Origin: Chthoniobacterales bacterium
GTDB taxonomy: Bacteria > Verrucomicrobiota > Verrucomicrobiia > Chthoniobacterales > JAATET01
DNA length: 64,000 nucleotides
Assembly: GCA_015655545.1 (NCBI GenBank)
Contig: JAATET010000103.1
Location: 1-64,000, forward strand
Direction of reading: 5' to 3'
Positions 25,669-39,495 of the stretch are shown piece by piece. The notes under the pieces were generated by a model that saw only the letters and a program-made list of their open reading frames with translations, was not told the origin of the DNA and ran no database searches. Both the position numbers and the translations under genes were made by a program. Within the stretch, counting starts at the first letter, position 1. Every line of letters starts with the position of its first letter.

Positions 25669-26442
25669 ATGGCGGAGCAGAAAAACATCATCGAAGCGCG
25701 GAATCTCACGATCGGTTACGACGAAAACGTGGTGCTGAAGGACGTGTCGTTCGAAGTCCGGCAGGGCGAGATTTTTGTGATCCTCGGCGGGTCCGGCTGC
25801 GGGAAGAGCACGCTGCTCAAGCATCTGATCGGGCTGCATGCGCCGATGTCCGGTGAAATCCAAATCGAGGGCCGCGATCTCGTCTCGGCGGAGGGTGACG
25901 AGCGACAGGAAATTCTCACGCGCATCGGCGTGTCGTATCAAAGCGGCGCGCTTTTCGGCTCCATGACGATCAACCAAAACGTGCGCCTGCCGCTCGAGGA
26001 ATATACGGACCTGCCCGAAAACGCGCTCGCGTTGATCGCCTGGATGAAGCTGCGGCTGGTCGGGCTCGAGGAATCGGGCGGCAGTCTCCCGAGCGAGCTC
26101 AGCGGCGGCATGCAGAAGCGGGCGGCGATCGCGCGAGCCATGGCGCTCGATCCGGCGGTGGTCTTTCTCGACGAGCCGTCCGCGGGTCTCGATCCGGTCA
26201 CCTCGGCGGAACTCGACGCGCTGATCCTGCGCTTGAACGAGACGATGGGGACGACATTCGTGATTGTCACCCACGAGCTGCCCAGCATTTATGCGATAGC
26301 GGATCGCGTCATCATGCTCGACAAAAAGAAACAGGGAATCATCGCGGAAGGCTCTCCGGAGGAGCTGCGCGACCATTCGGCGGAGCCGTTCGTGCGCCAG
26401 TTTTTCCATCGCCAATCGTCCGAAGAGGAGGCGCAATCATGA
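25669..26442 (+). CDS. mlaF: Mla-type ABC transporter ATP-binding protein
   Basis: A 257-residue ATPase. Walker A is GGSGCGKST (residues 40-48), the signature LSGGM lies at 144-148 and Walker B is VVFLDEP (164-170), followed by SAGLDPVTSAELD and a switch His in IVTHEL. This is the MlaF/TTG2A type that drives lipid movement between membranes. It is encoded between the permease and the MCE protein, with a 4-bp overlap to the latter. Confidence 0.94.
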   Translation: MAEQKNIIEARNLTIGYDENVVLKDVSFEVRQGEIFVILGGSGCGKSTLLKHLIGLHAPMSGEIQIEGRDLVSAEGDERQEILTRIGVSYQSGALFGSMTINQNVRLPLEEYTDLPENALALIAWMKLRLVGLEESGGSLPSELSGGMQKRAAIARAMALDPAVVFLDEPSAGLDPVTSAELDALILRLNETMGTTFVIVTHELPSIYAIADRVIMLDKKKQGIIAEGSPEELRDHSAEPFVRQFFHRQSSEEEAQS

Positions 26443-27395
26443 AAGAGGCGAGCTATTTCCGGATCGGCCTGTTCATCATCGTCGGCCTGCTGCTGCTGGC
26501 GGGCGGCCTGGTGATTTTCGGCGTCGGGCAGTTTTTCAAACACAAGATTTACATCGAGACCTACGTGGATGCGACGGTGCAGGGCATCGAGGTCGGATCG
26601 CCGCTGAAGTTCCGCGGCGTGACCGTGGGCAAGGCGACGAAGGTCAGCTTTTTGTTCAACGAATATCCGCAGGTCGACCGGACGGCGGTCGCCAATTACG
26701 TCGTGATCCTCATGGAAGTCGACGAGGAGATTTTTCCCGGCATGTTCCGGGCCGACAATCTCCAGCCGCAGATCGACAAGGCCATCGCCAGCGGACTGCG
26801 CGTGCAGATCGAGCCGCAGGGCATCACGGGATTGAACTACCTCGAAATGAACTACGTCCCGCCGGACCGCTTCAAGCCGATCCAGCTCATCTGGAAGCCG
26901 AGATACTATTATCTGCCCTACGCGCCGGGCGAGCTCACGAGCATGCTCGATTCCGTGAACAAGATGATGCACGACGTCGAGAAGCTGAACATCGAAGGCA
27001 TCGGCACCAAGACGATGGCCGTGCTCGATTCCGTGACCCAGGCGATGAACGACGCGCAGTTCGCAAAGCTCAGCAACGATGCGCAGAAAGTGCTTTCCGA
27101 TGTTTCCAAGGCGGTCGAAGACGCGAAGATCGAGGAGCTGAGCGCCGACACGCGGCGGTTGCTCACCGAGGTCCAGAAATCGAACGATCAGGTCAAGGCC
27201 ATCCTCACCAATGTGGAGCCGGCCTCGCGGCTGAACGCGGACGACATCGCCTCGACGCTGGCAAACCTGCGCATCATTTCCGAAAATCTGCGCGCGGCCA
27301 GCGCCGAAGTTTCGCGCGATCCGTCGAAGATCATTTTCAGCAAACCGCCCAAACCCTCCAAGGTCATGGAGCCCACGCTTCCCGCCAAACGATGA
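26439..27395 (+). CDS. mlaD: MCE-domain substrate-binding protein (MlaD family)
   Basis: A 318-residue protein with one N-terminal membrane span (residues 7-29: GLFIIVGLLLLAGGLVIFGV), one MCE domain (about 38-130: YVDATVQGIEVGSPLKFRGV through GLNYLEMNYVPP) and a long helical C-terminus (160-300) with heptad-like repeats. MlaD proteins form a hexameric ring that passes lipids in the periplasm. The long helical tail is more like MlaD/Mce needle extensions than the short E. coli MlaD. The 5' end overlaps the ATPase gene and the 3' end overlaps the lipoprotein gene, each by 4 bp. Confidence 0.92.
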   Translation: MKEASYFRIGLFIIVGLLLLAGGLVIFGVGQFFKHKIYIETYVDATVQGIEVGSPLKFRGVTVGKATKVSFLFNEYPQVDRTAVANYVVILMEVDEEIFPGMFRADNLQPQIDKAIASGLRVQIEPQGITGLNYLEMNYVPPDRFKPIQLIWKPRYYYLPYAPGELTSMLDSVNKMMHDVEKLNIEGIGTKTMAVLDSVTQAMNDAQFAKLSNDAQKVLSDVSKAVEDAKIEELSADTRRLLTEVQKSNDQVKAILTNVEPASRLNADDIASTLANLRIISENLRAASAEVSRDPSKIIFSKPPKPSKVMEPTLPAKR

Positions 27396-28006
27396 GCCGC
27401 ATTTTCCTTCCCGTGCTGGGGTGTCTGGCGATGTTCGCGGCCGGCTGCTCGTTCACGCCGCCGCCGAAGCCGAAATATTTTCTGCTCGATCCGGGCAAGC
27501 CAGTTTCGATGAAAGCGCTTCGTCCGTCGGATTCGGCGGCCAACGCGGCCGTGAGCTTCGTCGATGTGGCGGCGCCGTTTGCCTCGGATGGATTTGTTTA
27601 TCGGGTCACGCCGGGCACTTGGGAAACCGATCCCTATAACCAGTTTCTCGTCTCGCCCGCGGACATGATGACGTCGATCCTTCGCAACTGGACGCGCGAG
27701 TCCGGGCTCTATGGCGACGTCGCGGTGCCCGGAGCGGGCGGCGGGCAGGACTACCTGATCGATTGCGACCTCACGGAAATATATGGCGATTTCAGCAATC
27801 CCGCCGCTCCGCGCGCCGTGCTCACGATCGAAGCGCAGGTCTTCCATCGCACGGATAAAGGACGCGACATGGTGCTGCGCAAGACCTTCACGCAATCCGT
27901 GCGAATCGCCTCGCGCACGCCGGCCGCATTGGTCGACGCCTGGAACGACGCGCTGCGCGTGGAGCTAAGCCTGCTGCTGCGCTCGCTCGGTGAGCTTCGG
28001 CCGTAG
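27392..28006 (+). CDS. ABC-type transport auxiliary lipoprotein (PqiC/ABC_trans_aux-like)
   Basis: A 204-residue lipoprotein (signal LPVLGCLAMFAAGC, lipidated Cys19). The YFLLDPGKPV strand near the N-terminus and the later YLIDCDLTEIYGDFSNP and VLTIEAQVFHR strands match the family of outer-membrane lipoproteins that accompany MCE transporters (PqiC type). It completes the four-gene operon and probably docks the MCE protein to the outer membrane. Confidence 0.85.
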   Translation: MSRIFLPVLGCLAMFAAGCSFTPPPKPKYFLLDPGKPVSMKALRPSDSAANAAVSFVDVAAPFASDGFVYRVTPGTWETDPYNQFLVSPADMMTSILRNWTRESGLYGDVAVPGAGGGQDYLIDCDLTEIYGDFSNPAAPRAVLTIEAQVFHRTDKGRDMVLRKTFTQSVRIASRTPAALVDAWNDALRVELSLLLRSLGELRP

Positions 28007-28022: not shown

Positions 28023-29294
28023 TTAATCTTCCTCTGGCCGCGATGCCACGAGGGGAGGAAGAGGAAGATTATTGGACTCCATTCGCTCGGCCGTGAGCAG
28101 GATGCCCGCGGCTTTGTCGAGCGTCTCCTGCCATTCCTTCGCCGGTTCGGAATCGGCCACGATGCCCGCTCCGACATGGAAGGAAGCCTCGCCGCCCCGC
28201 GCCACGACGGTGCGAATGGCGATGTTCAGGCAGCTCTCGCCATTGAAGCCGAGGAAGCCGATCGCGCCGGTGTAAATGCCCCGCGGCGATGGCTCGAGCT
28301 CGGCAATGATTTCCAAAGCGCGTTTTTTCGGAGCTCCCGAGATCGAGCCGCCCGGGAAGCAGGCGGCGACGGCCTCGACGTGGGAAACCTCCGGACGGAG
28401 CGTGCCTTCCACGGACGAAACGAGATGAAAAACCTGCTCGAAGCGCTCGAGCCGCAAAAGATCCGAAACGTGAACACTGCCGTATTCGCAGACGCGGCCG
28501 AGGTCGTTGCGCTCAAGATCGGTGATCATTACGAGCTCGGAGACCTCCTTGGGCGAGGTGATCAATTCATACGCCGAGCGCTCGTCCGCATCCGATTCCG
28601 AGCGGCGCGGGCGGGTGCCTTTGATCGGGCGCGTTTGCACATTGCGGCCGCTCATGCGCAGGAAGCATTCCGGCGACGCGGACATCACCGTGGTATCGCC
28701 CAGCGAAAAATAACCAGCAAAGGGCGCGGGCGAGTAGTGGCGAAGCGCCTCGTAGAACGGCCACGCGTCGCCGTGCCACGGCGCCCGATAGCGATGCGCG
28801 ATGCAGGCCTGATAGATATCTCCCGCGACGATGTATTCCTGCGTGCGACGCACCATTTCGCAATACGCCTCCGCCGTGATCTCGGGCTGAAAATCCAGGC
28901 GGGCGACCTCTTTCGCCCCCGCCTCCTCCGGCAGCGGCGGATTCCCGACCGCCAGCCAGCGCTCGTTCGCATGCTCGTAAATCAGCAAGTCCGGATAAAT
29001 GCCGAACCGGAAGGCGCCATCAAACGCGAACCAGCCGATCGCGGCGCCCTGCGGCAAATTGCGATCCCCGGTCTCGGCGCGGCGGGCTTCGAGTTCGCGG
29101 GCCAGCCGGGGCCATTCCGTCGCCGATCCCTCGATCACACACTCCGGCTCACAAGCCAGGATCGAGATCGCGGCGGGCGATTCCAGCGCCGAATCGAGGA
29201 AAACCAAGCCCTTGCGGCCCGACAAGCCGGAGGCAGCTTCCGCCGGAGTCAGCGGGAGCTCGATCTCGCGAAATTGGGATGCCTGGCGCGCCAT
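28023..29294 (-). CDS. pabB: Aminodeoxychorismate synthase component I (PabB-like)
   Basis: From ATG 29294 the product is 423 residues. It has the chorismate-binding domain with PIKGTRPR (the Lys that marks aminodeoxychorismate synthase over anthranilate synthase), ELVMITDLERNDLGRV, ACFPGGSISGAPKKRALEII, GIYTGAIGFLG, and the FHVGAGIVADSEPAKEWQET end. It makes 4-amino-4-deoxychorismate for folate, with ammonia from a PabA subunit that is not in the window. An upstream in-frame start (29336) would overlap the divergent gene's leader. Convergent with the Mla operon. Confidence 0.9.
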   Translation of the reverse strand: MARQASQFREIELPLTPAEAASGLSGRKGLVFLDSALESPAAISILACEPECVIEGSATEWPRLARELEARRAETGDRNLPQGAAIGWFAFDGAFRFGIYPDLLIYEHANERWLAVGNPPLPEEAGAKEVARLDFQPEITAEAYCEMVRRTQEYIVAGDIYQACIAHRYRAPWHGDAWPFYEALRHYSPAPFAGYFSLGDTTVMSASPECFLRMSGRNVQTRPIKGTRPRRSESDADERSAYELITSPKEVSELVMITDLERNDLGRVCEYGSVHVSDLLRLERFEQVFHLVSSVEGTLRPEVSHVEAVAACFPGGSISGAPKKRALEIIAELEPSPRGIYTGAIGFLGFNGESCLNIAIRTVVARGGEASFHVGAGIVADSEPAKEWQETLDKAAGILLTAERMESNNLPLPPLVASRPEED

Positions 29295-29364
29295 GGTGAC
29301 GCTTGCCAAGACAGGGCAAACCTGTTTCGTTTGCAAGTTCCACTCGCGGGTGGGGGCCTATAAA

Positions 29365-30363
29365 ATGAAGATCTGTTTTTTCCTGATTCCCACTGTCTTT
29401 TCGCTCGTGCTCGCTGGCACGGCGGTGGCGCAGGAAGCGAAGACGACCCCGAGCCCCTCGCCAACTCCCACCCCGCAAGCCGCGGCCAAGCCTTCCGAGC
29501 AAAAGCCCGCGACGGACACCCCGCCGCCCTCTCCCACAGAGAAGCCAGCCTCCTCCCCGGTCGCGGATCAAAAAGCTCCCGAGAACCCGGACGCCGCCGC
29601 CACACCGACGGCCACCCCCCAAGGAGACGCCTCGACACCGCCTGCTTCTTCCGACGCGGACATTCTGCCCGAGCCCACGGATGCAAGCCTCGGAGCTCCC
29701 CCTCCGCCGCCGGCCGATGCGACACTCCCCTCCGACGAGGCTCCCGCCAGCGACCTGCCGAATCCCGACAGCTTGATTCCTCCCGACAGCGCCGGGGAGG
29801 AAAATGCTCCGCCGCCCGCACCGGAGGTTAAAGAAAACAAGTTCGACCAGGATCGGAAACTCCAGGTTCGCTATCAGGAGGTCAAACTCCAGGCGCTTAA
29901 GGACGCCTCGATCCGCAATCTGCACGAGCAGGCCGAAGCTTCGAAGACCGATGAAGGGAAACGCCAGGCGTTGCGCGAATATTACCGGCTGCTCTTTGCC
30001 AAAATGACGGCGATCGACGCGAACCTGAAGGAAAAATGCGAGACCATGCAAATGGCCTATCTGCGGCGGCTGGGCCAATATCGCGTCGAACCGACGATTC
30101 CCCTGGCTCCGCCGCCGACGCCCGAGCCGCTGGCCGGAATGGAAGCCCCCCCAGCCGCGAAGCCCAAGGTCGCCGCGAAGCCAAAAGCCACTCCCGAGCC
30201 CGAAGAAACCCCCGCTCCAAAGCCCAGAAAGGAATCGGCGCCGAAGCCGAAGCCGACTCCGAAAGCCACCCCCAAGCCAACGCCCGCGGCGAAGGCCACC
30301 CCCAAGCCTAAGCCGACTCCGAAGCTTAAGGCCGCTCCGAAGCCCGCGCAGACGGATGATTAA
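29365..30363 (+). CDS. Secreted proline/alanine/lysine-rich low-complexity protein
   Basis: A 332-residue protein with a signal peptide (MKICFFLIPTVFSLVLAGTA). The mature N-terminal half is almost entirely Pro, Ala, Ser, Thr and Asp with PTPTP repeats. A helical charged core follows (about residues 150-230: KENKFDQDRKLQVRYQEVKL). The C-terminus is a Lys-Pro repeat (TPKATPKPTPAAKATPKPKP) ending in TDD. Such spacers often cross the periplasm or cell wall. No enzymatic domain is recognised. The long in-frame extension upstream is noncoding and lies over pabB. Confidence 0.7.
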   Translation: MKICFFLIPTVFSLVLAGTAVAQEAKTTPSPSPTPTPQAAAKPSEQKPATDTPPPSPTEKPASSPVADQKAPENPDAAATPTATPQGDASTPPASSDADILPEPTDASLGAPPPPPADATLPSDEAPASDLPNPDSLIPPDSAGEENAPPPAPEVKENKFDQDRKLQVRYQEVKLQALKDASIRNLHEQAEASKTDEGKRQALREYYRLLFAKMTAIDANLKEKCETMQMAYLRRLGQYRVEPTIPLAPPPTPEPLAGMEAPPAAKPKVAAKPKATPEPEETPAPKPRKESAPKPKPTPKATPKPTPAAKATPKPKPTPKLKAAPKPAQTDD

Positions 30364-30610: not shown

Positions 30611-31369
30611 ATGCAAATTGAGTTTTCCGCATTTCGCGACGCGCGACGCATCCATAAGTCGTCTCTCGTAGAGCCATTTCGTCACCATCGGTTTGCCAGC
30701 CGAAATTTGCGCGCCTTTTCCCTGGTCGAGCTTCTCGTCGTGATGGCGATCATCGCGCTCATTGCCTCCTTCTCGACCAGCGCCATGCGGTCCATGTTCA
30801 TGGGTAATGCCCAGCAGCGTGCGTTGACCGGCATTAGTTCCGCGATGGAACTGGCGCGGCAGACCGCGATCGCCGGCAGCACCTACACTTGGGTGGCCCT
30901 GGCCCAAGGCAAGAATAAAATCGGCGGGAATTCCGTGACCGCGGTGATTTTCGCCTCCAAGGATGGGAGTCTGGATGATCGCACCAAGATCCGTTTGGTG
31001 GATCGGGTGCAAGTCTATGACAACGTCATGATCTCAAACACCGATCCAGAGCCCAACGTTGCCAACCAGATTCCTACACCGGGGATAAGTTTTGATTCCG
31101 TGAGCTTTCAGCCCAAGCTCGATGAACTTCCGACTGCGATGCGCGGCCAGTCTTTTGACCACATGATCATGTTCACCCCCACCGGGGAAGCGGTGCTCGA
31201 TAACCTGGAAACCTCATTGGCCGCCATCCCTCTCCGGCAGGCCTTGCAGCTCACGGTCACCCCGGCAAAGGGCGCAACTCCAAACGCTATCGAGCGCAAA
31301 AGCGCATCGGTCGTCTGGATCAATGGCATCACCGGGGCAGTCGAAGTCTTTCAACCCGCGGCCTCTTAA
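30611..31369 (+). CDS. Verru_Chthon cassette protein D, GspH-like minor pseudopilin
   Basis: A 252-residue prepilin-like protein. After a long basic leader, the type III signal is NLRAFSLVELLVVMAIIALI: cleavage would fall before F36, with E40 as the conserved Glu5 of the mature chain. The residue before the cut is Ala, not the usual Gly. The soluble part fits the H-type pseudopilin size class. It heads a five-gene operon and corresponds to family Verru_Chthon_D; the GspH comparison is inferred from order and N-terminus. Confidence 0.88.
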   Translation: MQIEFSAFRDARRIHKSSLVEPFRHHRFASRNLRAFSLVELLVVMAIIALIASFSTSAMRSMFMGNAQQRALTGISSAMELARQTAIAGSTYTWVALAQGKNKIGGNSVTAVIFASKDGSLDDRTKIRLVDRVQVYDNVMISNTDPEPNVANQIPTPGISFDSVSFQPKLDELPTAMRGQSFDHMIMFTPTGEAVLDNLETSLAAIPLRQALQLTVTPAKGATPNAIERKSASVVWINGITGAVEVFQPAAS

Positions 31370-31372
31370 ATC

Positions 31373-31918
31373 TTGATCATGAGACTCTTGGCATCAACGA
31401 ATTTGGGAAGACAGCGGCGGAGGCGTTCGGGCTTTAGTTTGGTGGAAATCGTGCTGGCGCTTGGGCTATTCAGCATTGCGATCCTGGCAATCATTGGCCT
31501 CATGGGATCCGCCATGCAGCAAACCAGGGATAGCGAAGAGAAGATCCAGGCGGCAAATCTCAGCTCCGTCCTTTTGACGATCTTTAAGCAAAATCTCCAA
31601 ACTCAATTCAAAACCGGAACCGCCCCGGCGTGGCCGGATCTTTTTCCATTGCCCACCTCGGTGTCCGCAACTTCGGCCGGATCTTTTAGTGATCCCCCGG
31701 TTGCGATCGATAGCCAGGGTCGCACTTGCGATAATCCAGATGCCGTGTATGCGTTAAGCTATGTTTTATGGGAGGAACCTCAAGTGGGAACTCCGACCGC
31801 CCCCACCAGAGTTGTGCATTGTAGCTTGCAGTTGGAGTGGCCGGGCCCCGCGGCGGTCGCGGGGCATGGAGTGCAAAACTCTTATGTCACGACGACAAGC
31901 TTTCTCTTAACGAAATGA
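31373..31918 (+). CDS. Verru_Chthon cassette protein B, GspI-like minor pseudopilin
   Basis: A 181-residue prepilin-like protein with signal RRRRSGFSLVEIVLALGLFS: peptidase cleavage between G20 and F21, E25 as Glu5. The first 25 mature residues form the N-terminal hydrophobic helix. It matches the Verru_Chthon_B family and, in position and style of helix, GspI/PulI of type II secretion. It starts 3 nt after cassette D and its stop overlaps the next start (ATGA at 31915-31918). Confidence 0.88.
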   Translation: MIMRLLASTNLGRQRRRRSGFSLVEIVLALGLFSIAILAIIGLMGSAMQQTRDSEEKIQAANLSSVLLTIFKQNLQTQFKTGTAPAWPDLFPLPTSVSATSAGSFSDPPVAIDSQGRTCDNPDAVYALSYVLWEEPQVGTPTAPTRVVHCSLQLEWPGPAAVAGHGVQNSYVTTTSFLLTK

Positions 31919-32805
31919 TCACTTTCTCCCCCTTGTCACGCCGCGCCACGCGTGGCTTCACGTTGATCGAACTAATGGTTTCGATGACCATTCTGGTGCT
32001 GATCGTTTCCCTTTTCGCCCAAGTTGCGAACGGAATTTCCACCGCTTGGCGCCGATCGGAGGCGAAAATGGACAATTTCGCGAAGGCGCGATCTCTGTTG
32101 AACCGCTTTCAAACCGATATTGACGGAATTGTGCAGCGAGATGACTTGGCGGCCTTTCCCTCGACGGGAGACACCCCTGATCTTGCTTTCTTTACCCTTC
32201 GTCGGGGCTTTGACGTCGCTGGCGCGGCCGCCAACACCCGTCCCCTCTCCTATATCAAATTTGATTCGTCCGGCTCCGATGCAAAATTGATGCGAAACGA
32301 TGTCTCATTTGATTTTACCACCGCTTCGAATATTTTTGCTGACCCGCCCGCTGTCGTGACGACCGGTTCCCCCGCTCTTCCCGTGTCGGTTCCGCCCGGA
32401 TTGGCCGGAACGGGGTTTGAAATCAGTGACGGAATTCTTGCTTTCAAGTGGGCGTTTCTTACCGACGAAGGAAAGTATTCCTCCACTTATTACTCGGCCG
32501 GCCCTCCGGTTCATCGAGCCATCGGCATCACGATTTCCATGGTGGTTGCCGACGATCGCGCTGTTCGCGGACTCGAGGCAACGAACAAACTAAATGCCGT
32601 AATAAGTGACTTAGCCAATGAGTATGAGGCCCCCGGGGTTGCTCCAGGAACCCAGAATTGGAATCCTCAGAAAAAATGGGAGGATGCCCTTGGTCTCCAT
32701 CCTGGCGCCTCGGGAAGCATTATTGGGAGCATAGGATCGTCGCGATTTGTCCAAAACGTGCGGGTGTTTCAACGCACTTATCTCTTCCCCACCAATCGTC
32801 TCTAA
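31915..32805 (+). CDS. Verru_Chthon cassette protein C, GspJ-like minor pseudopilin
   Basis: A 296-residue prepilin-like protein. Signal RATRGFTLIELMVSMTILVL: cleavage between G14 and F15, E19 as Glu5. A heptad-like stretch (WRRSEAKMDNFAKARSLLNR) follows the hydrophobic helix, then a beta-rich soluble domain with SISTAWR- and RAIGITISMVVADD-like strands that recall GspJ. Start ATG 31915 overlaps cassette B by 4 bp. It matches the Verru_Chthon_C family. Confidence 0.88.
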   Translation: MITFSPLSRRATRGFTLIELMVSMTILVLIVSLFAQVANGISTAWRRSEAKMDNFAKARSLLNRFQTDIDGIVQRDDLAAFPSTGDTPDLAFFTLRRGFDVAGAAANTRPLSYIKFDSSGSDAKLMRNDVSFDFTTASNIFADPPAVVTTGSPALPVSVPPGLAGTGFEISDGILAFKWAFLTDEGKYSSTYYSAGPPVHRAIGITISMVVADDRAVRGLEATNKLNAVISDLANEYEAPGVAPGTQNWNPQKKWEDALGLHPGASGSIIGSIGSSRFVQNVRVFQRTYLFPTNRL

Positions 32806-32819
32806 TCACCACATCTTCC

Positions 32820-35800
32820 ATGAACAAAAACTCTTTTTCTATCATGAAAATATCTCCCGATCGTCATCGGGAGGGGGTGGCGTTGGTGATCACCCTTTCC
32901 CTGCTCTTAGTGGTGACCGTCATCGTTACCGCGTTCTTTTTCCGGTCCCGATTCGACACTCAAGCCAGTTCGTCTTATTCAGGCGATCATGCAGCCCAAG
33001 AAGTTGCTCAAGGGGCTTTGGCAAATGTGGTAAGTGGCCTTTTAACTGAGGCTGCCACAAGTATTAGCACGGGTGACCTGACCGTGCACAATGACGTCAT
33101 TGAGGTTACCGACCCCATCCGGATGCTTCCGAGTCGAGCGGCTACCGGCTCGGCAAATATTTTTCCGACCCTCATTAAACAAAGTATTGCCGGAACCACC
33201 CTTTTTCCCGGCTCCACCGCAATCACCCCAAGTAGTGTCGCGAGCATCGAGGACGCCGCCAATCGTTCGGGTTTGGATGGAAACTTTTGGAATAAACCGA
33301 AATTGACCGTTACCCCCCTCGACGGAACCGCGAATTCTCCAAATTGGATTTATGTCTCCGGTGACGGAGGAAGCGTAACGAGCGCCCCAACCGGGAATTC
33401 GGTCACCTCGGATAAGAAAATCGTGGCCCGATATGCTTTTAACGTCTACGACACCGGCGGATTGCTGGACATCAACGTTGCTGGCGGCGCGGGGATTTCG
33501 GCTTATGCGGCCGGTCGTCGAGGGGGTCTTGCTTCCGTCAATCCTGACGCGTTGCCGGGTGCCTCGGGGTTGCAAGCCGCGCTTGATTCCTTTCGTTCTG
33601 ACGGAAGCTGGACCGACGACCGTCTGAGCGCAATCTTAAAGCTCAATGGGCTTCCAATCAGCACGGGAACATACCGCGAGGGATTGGACGTCGCCTATTT
33701 CAAAAATGCTTTTCTGTCCCGGCAGGATTTGCTTTCTTTCTCCCACGCCAACGGATTTGACGCTGTTCTTCCCTATCTCACGGTGTTTTCGCGGGATGTC
33801 GATGTTCCTTACATGATTTGGAATTCAAAGACCAGTCCCGGTGATCTTCCTCCTAAAAGTTCCGCATTCCCTAACTCGGCGTCCGCCGCAACCAACATCA
33901 ACGTTCCTCCTTGGAAAGGCATCGGGGACACTTCCCCTTTTAAATCTCGTTTTCCGTTGGACCGGCTTGCCCTGTTGGGATCTTCCGACGGAGGCCCCAC
34001 GGGGAGTCCTTCAGACATTCTAACCTATTTTGGTCTGACTTGGGATGGCCCAACCAAGTCTTGGAAATACCCAACCAATACGATCAAGACCCTTGATCAA
34101 ATACCCGCCGGGGTCGAACCGAACTTTTTTGAAACACTTAAGGCCGCAATTTCGGTCGGATCGTTGGGTCGTCAAGCAGCTCCAGGCGCCTCGTCCTCCG
34201 ATTTGGAGGGCCCATTTGGTCTCCTAAACGGACAAAACATTCATTTGTCCGGAAAGCCCGATAGCACACAAATCGATTACTATACGGATTTACAAATATT
34301 TAGAATCGGGGCAAATATTATCGACCAATGGGACTACGATGGTTTCCCGACCCGTATCACAGTCCCAACAATCGGCTTTCTTAGAGAGCTGGTTATTTTT
34401 GGCGTTGAAGATTTGCCTTATTTGCACGCTGCACGGGAGAGCCCTTATGCTCCAACGACGAAGACAAAAACCGCTAACGGTGTTGATGTCGGCGAATCTT
34501 ATTTTCTCCTTCAACCACAACTTTGGAATCCCCATTCCGCTCTAAGTGGCAAGCCGGCCAATTTAAACGGCGCCCCCGCTACAGATCGAGCCCCGACCTC
34601 GCTTCGTTTGACTCCATGGAGCGCAAGTGGAACAAAAATATCGACTGGTTGGCACATGCAAAACAACCAAGCTAACACGTGGTCGAATGCTCCTTATGGG
34701 GAATTCTATTATTTGACCCCTGAAAAATCTTGGATTGGCTTTACAAATTCACCTGCTTTCCGCAACCCCATAATGCTTTTAACGCCTAGTTCATTTCCCG
34801 GGTTCAGCATAACTAATTTTGCCCAACCGCAACCAGACGGCCACTCCCCTGAAAACGAAATTCAAGGAAATTCAAGCCTGATATTTAACTCGACCGATGA
34901 CCAACCTAGCGGCAACCGCACTGGTTTTGTTCTAGCCCATTACGAGGCGCAACCATTTACGACTCCTCCTAAGGCGGGCGTAAAGAATACCCACCACACG
35001 AATGTTTTCTTGAACAGAGGTGTTCCTCTTACCCACGACGCGGTATCGTTTGCCTTGCAGTATGAATCGGGAGGAAATTGGTATACTTACGATATCATGT
35101 CGGATGTCTTGTGTAGTGGCGGCGCTTACTTAGTCAACGATTACGGCGCGGGAGTGGTGAGGCCGGACCCACGAACCGATCGCTTCAGCTCTTGGGGAAG
35201 TGCCATGGGGGCGGAGCAGACGCGTGATATTCTTAGAGCAAATAAAATTATGAACAAAACCGGCTTCGGGCTTGGAGATGGCAATCCATTTTTCAATTCT
35301 CTCGCCTATGGCGCCCCCGGTTGGAGCGCAAGCGCCAAGGCCACCGAACTTGCCACCAACAATGAAATTTCTACGTATAAAGATTCTGATGGCATTACCC
35401 GCCCGGCAAGTGGGTATTTAGGGGGGAATCCACTTTCACCTGACCCCCAAGCTCGCCCCATAGTTCTCAATCGCCCCTTTCAATCGGTTGGAGAATTGGC
35501 TTACGTCTTCCGTGACTCTCCTTGGAGAAATCTCGAACTTTACAATCCGAAAAGTGGCGACGCGGGACTACTGGAATATTTTTGCATTCATGCCACGAAC
35601 GAAAACGACCGCACCAAGTCTCCCCTTCGAGCGGGCGTGGTCAATATCAACTCGGCACTTCCCGAAGTTTTGGCCGCCGTAATTTCCGGAGCTAGCGCCA
35701 ATACTGATTTTTCCTCCAATTCTGGCGGCGGACAAGTCCAACCAACTGAAGCTAAAGCTATTGCCGACAAGATTAATGATTGGGTTACGGCAAAAACTAC

Positions 35801-36128
35801 CGACGGCGCCATGTTCCGTAGTCGGGCGGAGATAGTGGGACGGTTCGATCAGGGCAATTTTGTCGGACCTTCCAGTTCATACGAATCCTCTCTTTCATCA
35901 AAGCAATACGACAACCAGCGAAGCGTTGTTTCTCGAGCATTGAGCGACGTCATTACCACCAGTACTTGGAATCTTATGATCGATGTCGTAGCACAGTCGG
36001 GAATGCTTCCCAAAGGGAATACTCTTGATAAATTTGTGGTGACTGGTCAAAGCCGTTATTGGCTTCACATTGCCATCGACCGGACGACCGGTAAAATAGT
36101 CGATCAACGACTGGAACGGGTATTTTAA
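32820..36128 (+). CDS. Verru_Chthon cassette protein A, giant GspK-like minor pseudopilin
   Basis: A 1102-residue protein. The N-terminus REGVALVITLSLLLVVTVIV is a pilin-type hydrophobic helix in which the Glu5 of ordinary pilins is absent, as in GspK. Conserved GspK-like patches are YDTGGLLDINVAG (about residue 215), FQSVGELAYVF (about 885) and the NxN-type VVNINSALPEVLAAVI (N942, N944), which in GspK line the fold near the metal site. GspK is normally about 320 residues; this one is over three times longer through insertions. The codon use is AT-rich compared with the rest of the window. Its TAA shares one base with the ATG of the next gene. Confidence 0.88.
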   Translation: MNKNSFSIMKISPDRHREGVALVITLSLLLVVTVIVTAFFFRSRFDTQASSSYSGDHAAQEVAQGALANVVSGLLTEAATSISTGDLTVHNDVIEVTDPIRMLPSRAATGSANIFPTLIKQSIAGTTLFPGSTAITPSSVASIEDAANRSGLDGNFWNKPKLTVTPLDGTANSPNWIYVSGDGGSVTSAPTGNSVTSDKKIVARYAFNVYDTGGLLDINVAGGAGISAYAAGRRGGLASVNPDALPGASGLQAALDSFRSDGSWTDDRLSAILKLNGLPISTGTYREGLDVAYFKNAFLSRQDLLSFSHANGFDAVLPYLTVFSRDVDVPYMIWNSKTSPGDLPPKSSAFPNSASAATNINVPPWKGIGDTSPFKSRFPLDRLALLGSSDGGPTGSPSDILTYFGLTWDGPTKSWKYPTNTIKTLDQIPAGVEPNFFETLKAAISVGSLGRQAAPGASSSDLEGPFGLLNGQNIHLSGKPDSTQIDYYTDLQIFRIGANIIDQWDYDGFPTRITVPTIGFLRELVIFGVEDLPYLHAARESPYAPTTKTKTANGVDVGESYFLLQPQLWNPHSALSGKPANLNGAPATDRAPTSLRLTPWSASGTKISTGWHMQNNQANTWSNAPYGEFYYLTPEKSWIGFTNSPAFRNPIMLLTPSSFPGFSITNFAQPQPDGHSPENEIQGNSSLIFNSTDDQPSGNRTGFVLAHYEAQPFTTPPKAGVKNTHHTNVFLNRGVPLTHDAVSFALQYESGGNWYTYDIMSDVLCSGGAYLVNDYGAGVVRPDPRTDRFSSWGSAMGAEQTRDILRANKIMNKTGFGLGDGNPFFNSLAYGAPGWSASAKATELATNNEISTYKDSDGITRPASGYLGGNPLSPDPQARPIVLNRPFQSVGELAYVFRDSPWRNLELYNPKSGDAGLLEYFCIHATNENDRTKSPLRAGVVNINSALPEVLAAVISGASANTDFSSNSGGGQVQPTEAKAIADKINDWVTAKTTDGAMFRSRAEIVGRFDQGNFVGPSSSYESSLSSKQYDNQRSVVSRALSDVITTSTWNLMIDVVAQSGMLPKGNTLDKFVVTGQSRYWLHIAIDRTTGKIVDQRLERVF

Positions 36129-36904
36129 TGAAAGCCTTTGAAATTATTCTTCTTTGCTTAATAAGCGGTTCATCTTTTAGCCAAACTCCGGAGTCTGCTG
36201 ATACTCCCAAGCCTCGCGAGCCGTTAGTCAGCCGAATGCCCGCGCAGTCCGCTTGGACCATTGCCTTTTCCTACAATTCCGCCCCCGTTGGAGGGGATGC
36301 TCCATCGCAAGGAGCGAAGAACAATCCCACTCCCGAAAATCAACGGACGACAAAAACGGAGATTATAAAAAACGGCACGATTTATCGGGAAAAAGCCAGT
36401 TTTAATAGCGGACGAACGGGAGAAACTTGGTCCATCGGCAGTCTGGTCGTTTCAAATTTCTACACCGTCATCCCGGTTCCGGTGGATAGCGGAGCCATGG
36501 GAATTACCAATTTTAAAAAGTCTGATTTCGATGATGTCGCGTGGATCACGATGTCTCAGTTCAAAGGGGTAGTCGATTACAAGGGGCGGAAAGCCTTTTT
36601 ATTCAGCGGCGAAGGGGGCAAACGTAAATATAGCAACCGGGAATCCGGATTGATTCAGATTTGGAGAGATTCCCAAGGAGAGGCCCCCAAACCGGCTTTT
36701 TTAACAGGAGAAAGCCGGGTTTATTTGGATGTAGCTACCCAAGTTCCGATTGCGTTCGATAACGGCGAATTCACCGGCATTTATGCAATTAGCGCCAAGC
36801 CACCTTCGACTTTAGTCATGCCAAAAGATTTTCAAGATGTAATGCGCGAGCGCATTGCGTTCATGAAAGCCTATGGATCGGATCCCACAAAAAGTGATCA
36901 ATAG
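36128..36904 (+). CDS. Secreted protein coupled to the Verru_Chthon cassette
   Basis: A 258-residue protein with a signal peptide (MKAFEIILLCLISGSSFSQT). No family is recognised. The mature part begins with a Pro/Ser-rich linker, then a beta-rich domain (TIAFSYNSAPVGG, WSIGSLVVSNFYTVIPVPVD, GRKAFLFSGEGGKRKYSN, SRVYLDVATQVPIAFDNGE). Its ATG at 36128 overlaps the last base of the cassette A stop, so it should be made together with the pseudopilin tip proteins. It may be a substrate, chaperone or cap. Composition is AT-rich like cassette A. Confidence 0.75.
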   Translation: MKAFEIILLCLISGSSFSQTPESADTPKPREPLVSRMPAQSAWTIAFSYNSAPVGGDAPSQGAKNNPTPENQRTTKTEIIKNGTIYREKASFNSGRTGETWSIGSLVVSNFYTVIPVPVDSGAMGITNFKKSDFDDVAWITMSQFKGVVDYKGRKAFLFSGEGGKRKYSNRESGLIQIWRDSQGEAPKPAFLTGESRVYLDVATQVPIAFDNGEFTGIYAISAKPPSTLVMPKDFQDVMRERIAFMKAYGSDPTKSDQ

Positions 36905-36964: not shown

Positions 36965-38107
36965 TTATCTTTCTAAGACCTCACGGATGCCTTTCTGATT
37001 CCGGGCGAGCGGGGAGAAATCCCAGAGAACAAATCCGGCGCCCGCGTGCGGACCGATTGTTCGTTCCAACTGCAACTGGCGGGCGATTTCGCCGATTGGC
37101 CAGTTGAACCCCTCGCCGAGTCGCTCGATGGCGATTCCGGGGTAAACTGGAATCCCCCGGGGGTTGATCGCGGGATTGCGCCACCATTTGAGTAGCGCGC
37201 TGAAGCTCTGCGGGCCGCCGTCCTTCCAGTAAAGCTGCGGGACGATGTAGTCGACCCAGCCTTGCTGCAGCCAGGCGACGGGGTCGGAATAAAGCTCGTT
37301 GAGCTGGTCGAGGCCGGCCTTTACCTCCGGCGGCTGGCCTTTTGTGTAAATGCCGAAGGGGCTGATCCCGAACAGCGCGCCGCCGCGGGCGGCATGAACG
37401 GCGGCCTGGAGGCGGCGGACCATTTGGTTGACGTTGTTGCGGCGCCAGTCGGCCTTGCCGAGGCTCCCGCCCCTGGCCAGGTAGCGGGCGTAGGTGCTCT
37501 CATCGGGGAAGGGGCCGGAAAACGTGTCCGGATACGGGTAAAAATAGTCGTCGAGATGCACGCCGGCGACGGCGTAGCGCTTCACGATGTCGTGCACGAC
37601 ATCGACGACGTAGTCCTGCACTTCGGGCGCGCCGGGATCGAGCCAGAGTTGCTTGCCGACGCGGCGGGTGAACTTCGCGAGGCGCGTGGCGGGGCTTTTC
37701 GGGCTGCGATCGGCGGCGGCGCTGGTGGCGGCGCGGTAGGGGTTGATCCACGCGTGGATGGCGAGGCCGCGTTTCCGGCCTTCGGCGATGAAAAACGCGA
37801 GCGGATCATAGCCGGGCGAACGGCCCTGCGTGCCGGTGAGGACCTTGCTCCATGGCTCGATGCCGGACTCGTAGAGCGCATCGCCCTCGGGGCGGACCTG
37901 GACCATGAGCGCGTTGAGGCGGCAGGCCTTGGCGACATCGAGGATGCGGATGATCTGGGCTTTTTGAGTGTCGGCGGAGAGGCCGGGCTTCGACGGGAAA
38001 TTGAGGTTGTAAACCGTGGCGACCCACGCGGCGCGCATCTCCGCATGGAGGGAGCCCATGAGGACGGAGAGACCGAGCAGCAACGCGGCGTAAAATCGAA
38101 AACGCAT
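36965..38107 (-). CDS. Secreted GHL10/YngK-family glycoside hydrolase-like protein
   Basis: From ATG 38107 the product is 380 residues with a signal peptide (MRFRFYAALLLGLSVLMGSL). It has the DUF187/GHL10 TIM-barrel marks: MRAAWVATVYNLNFPSKPGL, NALMVQVRPEGDALYES, LAIHAWINPYRAATS, VAGVHLDDYFYPYPDT, FGISPFGIYTKG and VDYIVPQLYWKDG. The LDD pair (VHLDDYFYP) is the likely catalytic acidic site. The family includes YngK and enzymes that cleave peptidoglycan-like or other sugar chains. It is divergent from the GH5 gene, 95 bp apart. Confidence 0.88.
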   Translation of the reverse strand: MRFRFYAALLLGLSVLMGSLHAEMRAAWVATVYNLNFPSKPGLSADTQKAQIIRILDVAKACRLNALMVQVRPEGDALYESGIEPWSKVLTGTQGRSPGYDPLAFFIAEGRKRGLAIHAWINPYRAATSAAADRSPKSPATRLAKFTRRVGKQLWLDPGAPEVQDYVVDVVHDIVKRYAVAGVHLDDYFYPYPDTFSGPFPDESTYARYLARGGSLGKADWRRNNVNQMVRRLQAAVHAARGGALFGISPFGIYTKGQPPEVKAGLDQLNELYSDPVAWLQQGWVDYIVPQLYWKDGGPQSFSALLKWWRNPAINPRGIPVYPGIAIERLGEGFNWPIGEIARQLQLERTIGPHAGAGFVLWDFSPLARNQKGIREVLER

Positions 38108-38202
38108 GCGCGCAAAATGAACCGCTTTTTCCCGGATGGCGACTTCGGAATTGGCAGCGCTTCCCCCGGTCGATACCATGCGGGAGCGCGTCTCGCGTGC
38201 TC

Positions 38203-39495
38203 ATGTCCAGAATCGCCGCCCTTCTTTTTTTCGCGCTGCTGAATCTCGCGCCGGCGCGCGCCGACGGGCCATTCGCCGGCGTACGCGGGCCGGAAATCGT
38301 CGCGCCGAATGGCGAGCCGCTCTTGCTCAAAGGCGTGAATCTCGGCAACTGGCTGCTGCCGGAGGGCTACATGTTCAAGACCGGCCAGATGAATTCGCCG
38401 CGTCTGCTCACCGAGCTGCTCAATGAGCTGATCGGCCCCGCCGCCACGAGAGAATTCTGGCAAAAATATCTCGATGCCTACGTCACCGCGGCGGATATCC
38501 ATTTCCTGAAGACAGCGGGCGTGAATTCGTTGCGGGTTCCCTTCAATTACCGGCTTTTTACGAACGAAGATTACTTGGGCGGTAGCGACGCCTCCCGCGG
38601 CTTCGCCTTGCTCGACCGGCTCGTCGCGTGGTGCAAGGCCGAGCAGATCTATCTTATCCTCGACATGCACTCCGCGCCGGGCGGACAGACGGGCGACAAC
38701 ATCGATGACAGCTATGGCTATCCCTATCTTTTCGAGAGCGAGGCCGATCAGCAGCTCACCGTCGATATTTGGAAAGAAATCGCCGGTCATTATGCCGACG
38801 AGCCGGCCGTCATCGGCTACGATCTGCTCAACGAGCCGATCGCGCCCTTTTTCGACAAGGCCTCGTTGAATCCGAAGCTCGAGCCGCTCTACAAGCGGAT
38901 CGCGGCCGCGATTCGCACGGTGGACAAGAACCACCTTCTTTTCCTCGGCGGTGCGCAGTGGGATCAGAATTTCACGATCTTCAAAAAGCCGTTCGACAAA
39001 AAATCGGTTTACACGTTTCACAATTATTGGAGCGAGACGACGGACGACGTGCTCGAACCGTGGCTGGATTTTCGCGACCGGTATGACGTGCCGGTTTATT
39101 GCGGGGAAACCGGCGAGAACAACGATGCGTGGATTCGCGATTTTCGAAAACTGCTCGACCGCAATCACGTCGGCTGGGCCTTCTGGCCGTATAAAAAAAT
39201 GGAGAGTCCGGCGTGCGTGATCCAGTTTGCGCGCCCCGCGGACTATGGCTTGATCATGCAATACGCGGGCGCTCCGCGGGCGGCGTTTGTGGAAATTCGG
39301 AAGGCCCGGCCCGAGAGCCGCGAGGCGGTGAAAAAGGCGCTCGATGAGCTGCTGTTCAACTGCCGATTCGAGAATTGCAAACCGAACGCCGGCTACATCG
39401 AGGCGCTCGGATTCAAAGTCCCGGCTACGGACGCCGCTCCCGAAGACGGCGCCTCTCCCGCGCCAAAAACACCGGCAGCAACCGCGCCTCAATAA
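38203..39495 (+). CDS. Secreted GH5 cellulase-like glycoside hydrolase
   Basis: A 430-residue protein with a signal peptide (residues 1-20) and a GH5 TIM barrel. The acid/base is E211 in YDLLNEPI, the nucleophile is E302 in VYCGETGEN, and the conserved GVNLGNWLLPEGYM and YLILDMHSAPGGQ strands are present. It likely cleaves beta-1,4- or beta-1,3/1,6-glucan; similarity in the GVNLGNWLLPE start recalls exo-beta-glucanases. The last 71 bp overlap the convergent mini-RNase III-like gene. The C-terminal tail is Pro/Ala-rich. Confidence 0.9.
   Translation: MSRIAALLFFALLNLAPARADGPFAGVRGPEIVAPNGEPLLLKGVNLGNWLLPEGYMFKTGQMNSPRLLTELLNELIGPAATREFWQKYLDAYVTAADIHFLKTAGVNSLRVPFNYRLFTNEDYLGGSDASRGFALLDRLVAWCKAEQIYLILDMHSAPGGQTGDNIDDSYGYPYLFESEADQQLTVDIWKEIAGHYADEPAVIGYDLLNEPIAPFFDKASLNPKLEPLYKRIAAAIRTVDKNHLLFLGGAQWDQNFTIFKKPFDKKSVYTFHNYWSETTDDVLEPWLDFRDRYDVPVYCGETGENNDAWIRDFRKLLDRNHVGWAFWPYKKMESPACVIQFARPADYGLIMQYAGAPRAAFVEIRKARPESREAVKKALDELLFNCRFENCKPNAGYIEALGFKVPATDAAPEDGASPAPKTPAATAPQ

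Follow-up and report, generated by a model that had tools for sequence, protein, structure and literature searches.

In type II secretion systems (T2SS), the minor pseudopilins GspH, GspI, GspJ and GspK are encoded in this order, all with prepilin N-termini and with a glutamate at position +5 (Glu5) in three of them and not in the fourth, and their tip complex is represented by PDB entries 3CI0 and 5VTM. The pseudopilus tip is the substrate-recognising part of the T2SS (PMC6211770), and the core minor pilins of type IV pili resemble GspH, GspI and GspJ in structure (PMC5131608). One verrucomicrobial genome encodes 67 PulG-like pseudopilins, and a pseudopilin is induced on alginate (PMC13274419). 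Sorting tails are tied to type II secretion in the GlyGly-CTERM/rhombosortase system (PMC3237569). The Verru_Chthon A-D families (TIGR02600, TIGR02598, TIGR02599, TIGR02596) are so far described by name alone, and the papers searched contained nothing on Verru_Chthon. Here we analyse a 64,000-nucleotide stretch (the window; contig JAATET010000103.1) from the 3.0-Mb, 84%-complete draft genome of a Chthoniobacterales bacterium, in which five genes, termed D, B, C, A and E in their order on the DNA, form one compact unit at 30611-36904 on the plus strand. We propose that this D-B-C-A-E cassette probably specifies an alternative minor-pseudopilin tip of the GspH-I-J-K type together with a dedicated periplasmic partner.

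All five genes were found again where the first-pass annotation had placed them, separated by gaps of at most 14 nt or by short overlaps, and a single start codon, that of B, was revised from TTG 31373, which gives the numbering in which cleavage falls at G20, to ATG 31379. Gene D (30611-31369, +) encodes a GspH-like minor pseudopilin of 252 amino acids with prepilin cleavage before F36, gene B (31379-31918, +) a GspI/PilV-like one of 179 amino acids with cleavage before F, and gene C (31915-32805, +), whose start overlaps the end of B by 4 nt, a GspJ-like one of 296 amino acids with cleavage after G14; their best T2SS partners are GspH, GspI and GspJ, respectively, and each has Glu at +5. Gene A (32820-36128, +), beginning 14 nt after C, encodes a giant GspK-like pseudopilin of 1102 amino acids with a GspK-like N-terminus (REG/VALVITLSL) that lacks Glu5. 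Gene E (36128-36904, +), whose ATG has one base in common with the stop codon of A, encodes a periplasmic or secreted protein of 258 amino acids with a signal peptide. The prepilin N-termini described at first pass, with Glu5 in D, B and C and none in A, were confirmed and follow the pattern of the GspH-I-J-K set; the cleavage sites and Glu5 of D, B and C are conserved among homologues, and all four proteins gave significant prepilin-family matches. Genes for a major pseudopilin, for an ATPase, for a platform and for a secretin are all missing from the unit. Because of the prepilin-family matches, the recurrence of the arrangement in 123 fetched loci and the genome-wide inseparability of E from A, the unit cannot be due to chance: D-B-C-A-E is real, widespread and coherent.

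The cassette was compared with the minor pseudopilins of 20 T2SS operons from relatives and of the operon in the same genome (21 in total), in which the order G-H-I-J-K was recovered with G uncalled in some. The latter operon, on contig C42, reads G-H-I-J-K and is accompanied by genes for a secretin and a T2SSE ATPase and by two additional open frames at the GspL/M position, so that a search for secretion machinery, proposed as a check of the first reading, was answered within the genome itself. Profile-profile comparison gave a clean diagonal, D with GspH (88, next best 54), B with GspI (67, next 49), C with GspJ (71, next 54) and A with GspK (54, next 30), in accord with the original equation of D-B-C-A with H-I-J-K, and the gene order in the window and in most loci is the corresponding one. 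After removal of the N-terminal helix only the A-GspK match stayed significant (58, E-value 2e-6). In the opposite direction, when models trained solely on cassettes were applied to the genome's own GspH, GspI and GspJ, they named them D, B and C. Among NCBIfam families other than Verru_Chthon, GspK was the only one to match the A homologues (9 of 12) and GspH led for the D homologues (19 of 21), GspJ was among the matches of C, and B matched PilV and XpsI/GspI. The window proteins score far below the NCBIfam equivalog cut-offs for GspH, GspI, GspJ and GspK, the GspK genes of the relatives' own T2SS are likewise below theirs, and sequence profile searches of the PDB returned nothing useful for A, B, C and E, with D and C matching only pilin N-terminal helices. 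By these comparisons the assignment of A to GspK is good, and that of D, B and C to GspH, GspI and GspJ is supported through the N-terminal helix.

The correspondence between A and GspK can be followed along the chain. Residues 19-80 (32874-33059, +) form a predicted long, GspK-like N-terminal pilin helix that matches GspK 1-52 with a probability of 92.5 (A 19-82 aligns with the GspK N-terminus), and residues 204-222 (33429-33485, +; RYAFNVYDTGGLLDINVAG) align weakly with the GspK segment preceding the alpha domain. The alpha-domain core corresponds to residues 879-953 (35454-35678, +; RPFQSVGEL to GVVNINSALPEVLAAV, matching GspK 146-201 with a probability of 93.9), in which the patch N942/N944 and the motif FQSVGELAYVF, already pointed out in the first reading, are present and conserved. 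Residues 1049-1101 (35964-36122, +) form three C-terminal strands and are the best conserved portion of the protein. Residues 223-878 (33486-35453, +) are an insertion within the alpha-domain region, which in the window adds ∼650 residues relative to GspK. Segment profiles, used in place of a crude alignment that kept too few sequences for landmark counts, found the four landmarks in order in 115 of 124 A proteins; across these 115 homologues the distance from GLLDINVAG to RPFxSVxEL ranges from 262 to 1285 residues (median 704) versus ∼56 in GspK. The other stretches between landmarks are nearly constant, so that the length of A varies mainly through this single insertion, which is shortest at three loci (L042, L047 and L048). 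In an AlphaFold model of A (pLDDT 72.8, pTM 0.81) both the long N-terminal helix and the three C-terminal strands are seen. Judged by its sequence, A is a GspK, in line with the first reading, with a large variable insertion in the alpha domain, and the insertion is a natural candidate for the recognition of cargo or of a surface.

These features were also weighed against the possibility that the cassette supplies a type IV pilus with its core minor pilins (of the FimU-PilV-PilW-PilX type), with A as the tip adhesin of a real pilus. Type IV pili have an analogous four-gene set, the core minor pilins of which structurally resemble GspH, GspI and GspJ (PMC5131608), B resembles PilV, and a large variable insertion would suit an adhesin. 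In three f9-family genomes a cassette lies beside a gene for a T2SSE/MshEN-type ATPase (L042 in G037, L047 in G011 and L049 in G021; the Pfam identification of T2SSE and MshEN was run on L047), which is a kind of ATPase known from pilus motors too, and short-insert A proteins occur in such cassettes. PilX, however, is not known to have the GspK alpha-domain core, which is present in A together with the large insertion; the Pfam PilX_N match to A is weak (E-value 0.04), and the A homologues match GspK and, apart from Verru_Chthon A, no other NCBIfam family. We therefore regard a pilus of this kind as unlikely. The short-A cassettes next to the ATPase gene (L042 and L047) may be an ancestral or self-contained form.

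The fifth gene had been put forward as a candidate partner of the pseudopilins, and its distribution bears this out. E follows A in 62 of 80 loci, mostly with an overlap of 4 or 8 nt, which answers the earlier call to look for its co-occurrence in other cassettes. When 57 genomes were searched blind with a profile of E, 41 matches were obtained in 15 genomes that all carry A, and none in any of the 18 genomes without A; 37 of the matches lie just behind A, another two being second copies in tandem and the last two both belonging to one genome (G053). E diverges fast (median identity 18%), and its distances correlate better with those of A (0.38) than with those of D, B and C (0.14-0.17). On this evidence from sequence and gene position, E is a conserved component of the cassette and a partner of A. 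It has no NCBIfam match, and Pfam assigned no family to any of the 58 E homologues, such that profile libraries miss this fifth component. An assignment as a lipoprotein was dropped because a lipobox-like motif occurs in 1 of 91 sequences. The structural model of E (pLDDT 80.5) has LprG, LppX, RseB/MucB, LolA and VioE as its leading Foldseek matches in the PDB, and the match to the LolA/LppX/LprG fold has a probability of 1.0 and an E-value of 4.5e-5, but TM-scores of 0.3-0.44. E is therefore predicted to have a LolA/LppX/LprG-like fold, and such a fold suggests a lipid or a hydrophobic peptide as ligand. E would share the fold and the periplasmic location of the LolA/LolB, LppX/LprG and RseB superfamily; it differs in having no detectable sequence similarity, low TM-scores and a fixed linkage to a pseudopilin. 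Tandem E pairs stand behind a single A at L019:6058-7427 and at positions 4005-5383 of contig C590 of G045. The two G053 matches (contigs C131 and C144), the sole E genes not behind an A, are in a genome whose A proteins are very large and in which no exosortase was detected. A second, unrelated fifth-gene family takes the same position behind A in another cassette subtype (L007:2113-3072 on contig C47, L011:8036-8980 and L049:9706-10467).

The predicted fold of E also enters an alternative in which the four pseudopilin-like proteins form a static, membrane-anchored periplasmic complex that serves as an assembly site for extracellular matrix or a surface layer, to which E would bring a lipid or glycolipid. 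The beta-repeat PEP-CTERM proteins among the neighbours would fit such a site, as would some A-E pairs with no D, B or C nearby, but many of these lone pairs are on short contigs. Since the conserved cleavage sites, the Glu5 of D, B and C and the GspK-like character of A indicate assembly into a filament, we consider a static complex quite improbable.

Relatives of A, sought with a profile of three A proteins, occur in 39 of the 57 genomes. The loci read comprise 40 regions and a further 80 from a related-locus search, which by their record titles are all from Verrucomicrobiota and include Chthoniobacter flavus Ellin428; strain LR76 has cassettes as well. The expectation of a fixed gene order across genomes held in part: D-B-C-A dominates, but permutations such as B-C-D-A and A-E-D-B-C exist, in which A-E and D-B-C mostly remain joined. 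The window genome has four units, the one in the window and those on contigs C47 (L007), C114 (L008) and C73 (L010, in the order B-C-D-A-E). At locus L014 (7171-14219, in G002) two A genes stand nearly in tandem, and a beta-repeat PEP-CTERM protein is encoded after the second. The best NCBIfam families of the window D, B, C and A proteins are Verru_Chthon D, B, C and A, and the gene kinds, the phylum and the giant A are common to both. The first-pass label of a Verru_Chthon cassette was nevertheless withdrawn, for the window proteins fall below every curated cut-off (34 of 70 bits for D, 32 of 51 for B, 40 of 256 for C and 27 of 332 for A), and true members form a separate group: the two read (L033 and L013) have the order B-C-A-D and no detected E, and the A protein of L033 (in G041) scores 978 bits for TIGR02600. 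True Verru_Chthon A genes were found by whole-genome scan in 15 genomes, with ∼9 each in G041 and G047, and none in the 84%-complete draft genome of the window. On these scores, the unit is best described as a sister class of Verru_Chthon and not as a formal member.

Copy number bears on how such tips might be used: some related bacteria of soil and water hold about twenty tip sets and a single secretion machine. G041 carries 10 E-linked cassettes and ∼9 true Verru_Chthon A genes with one stand-alone GspK, and ∼20 cassettes of both classes against one GspK suggest exchangeable tips on a shared machine. Secretin co-occurrence was uninformative, a secretin being present in all 57 genomes. Massive pseudopilin paralogy beside a T2SS, with a link to polysaccharide use, is also seen in the PulG-like expansions of Verruconatronum alginivorum (PMC13274419), where single genes are multiplied; in the present genomes the unit of multiplication is a complete tip set that includes a GspK. 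The T2SS tip, elsewhere one fixed set, would thus be both multiplied and furnished with a variable domain on GspK. From the T2SS GspH-I-J-K set the cassette further differs by the lack of major pseudopilin and machine genes and by a fifth gene that is near-obligate in this class.

Three kinds of neighbour recur beside the cassettes: beta-strand-repeat/PEP-CTERM proteins, which form a cluster of 39 loci; regulators of the LacI/GntR type, lying no more than 500 nt away in 17 loci; and carbohydrate-related proteins. A PEP-CTERM/beta-repeat gene immediately precedes the cassette, on the same strand and no more than 700 nt away, in 13 loci and lies directly downstream in 2 (binomial p=0.007, the loci not all being independent), and PEP-CTERM proteins are abundant in Verrucomicrobium (PMC1569441). 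We infer from this neighbourhood that the cassettes may export or display a surface protein, as first suggested, and that PEP-CTERM beta-repeat proteins and polysaccharide-related proteins are the best cargo candidates; the co-occurrence of exosortase with the cassettes is suggestive. The regulators, neighbouring proteins that look like sialate esterases by sequence and the GH5 and GHL10 genes of the window would also suit a device for exporting or binding polysaccharide, akin to the cyanobacterial Hps pseudopilins, to two of which (HpsB and HpsC) there are weak NCBIfam matches. These matches are weaker than those to GspH, GspI, GspJ and GspK, and the surroundings of the cassettes showed no recognisable glycosyltransferase cluster, which makes an Hps-like function very improbable.

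We therefore return to the minor-pseudopilin tip with its periplasmic partner. Once processed by prepilin peptidase, B, C and A would initiate pseudopilus assembly in the inner membrane in the manner of GspI, GspJ and GspK, and D would join this tip to the shaft of major pseudopilins, as GspH does. The major pseudopilin, the ATPase, the platform and the secretin, none of which the cassette encodes, would most likely be borrowed from the single T2SS of the cell or from another pilin machine. A would sit on top, its variable domain within the GspK alpha domain recognising cargo or a surface, and E would be the periplasmic companion of A, chaperoning or carrying the cargo or the hydrophobic or lipid-bearing end of it. 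A genome rich in cassettes would accordingly have a stock of interchangeable tips, each suited to particular secreted or surface proteins. Several observations weigh against this proposal. The globular parts of D, B and C give no significant T2SS match, their signal coming from the N-terminal helix region, and PilV of type IV pili matches B at least as well as GspI does, so that the machine could be a pilus. A Foldseek search of the PDB with the A model (pLDDT 72.8) found no significant match, GspK included, and the TM-scores of E to LolA-like proteins are low. Few cassettes adjoin an ATPase gene, a PEP-CTERM/beta-repeat gene directly adjoins the cassette in only ∼20 of the 123 loci and not in the window, and exosortase co-occurs weakly with the cassettes (Fisher p=0.026, uncorrected for relatedness).

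A bolder version of the proposal, which we regard as a long shot, is that one T2SS accepts any of ∼10-20 tips, each with a giant GspK that has its own recognition domain, and that a LolA-like carrier belonging to each tip hands over the hydrophobic or lipid-bearing tail of a PEP-CTERM surface protein, by which exosortase sorting would be joined to type II secretion. The GlyGly-CTERM/rhombosortase system (PMC3237569) likewise links a C-terminal sorting tail to type II secretion; the present case involves a PEP-CTERM tail and exosortase, and is linked to type II secretion by gene neighbourhood only. The tip proposal gives a testable function to families of the Verru_Chthon type and offers a handle on how the type II secretion machine recognises its substrates, and a possible exit route for PEP-CTERM proteins is suggested.

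The surroundings of the cassette in the window include GHL10 and GH5 glycoside hydrolase genes just downstream (36968-39492). Upstream of D, at 28999-30363, is a gene for a signal-peptide protein very rich in Pro/Ala/Thr/Lys repeats, Pfam-negative and possibly a surface or linker protein, and at 25669-28006 there is, by sequence appearance, an operon for MlaF/MlaD-type ABC lipid transport with a small lipoprotein. The A gene of the window shows the biggest fall in GC content relative to its flanks among 117 loci (0.51 versus 0.62), and its third-position GC is 0.49 versus 0.81 in a cassette of the same genus (L015); the low GC suggests a recent acquisition.

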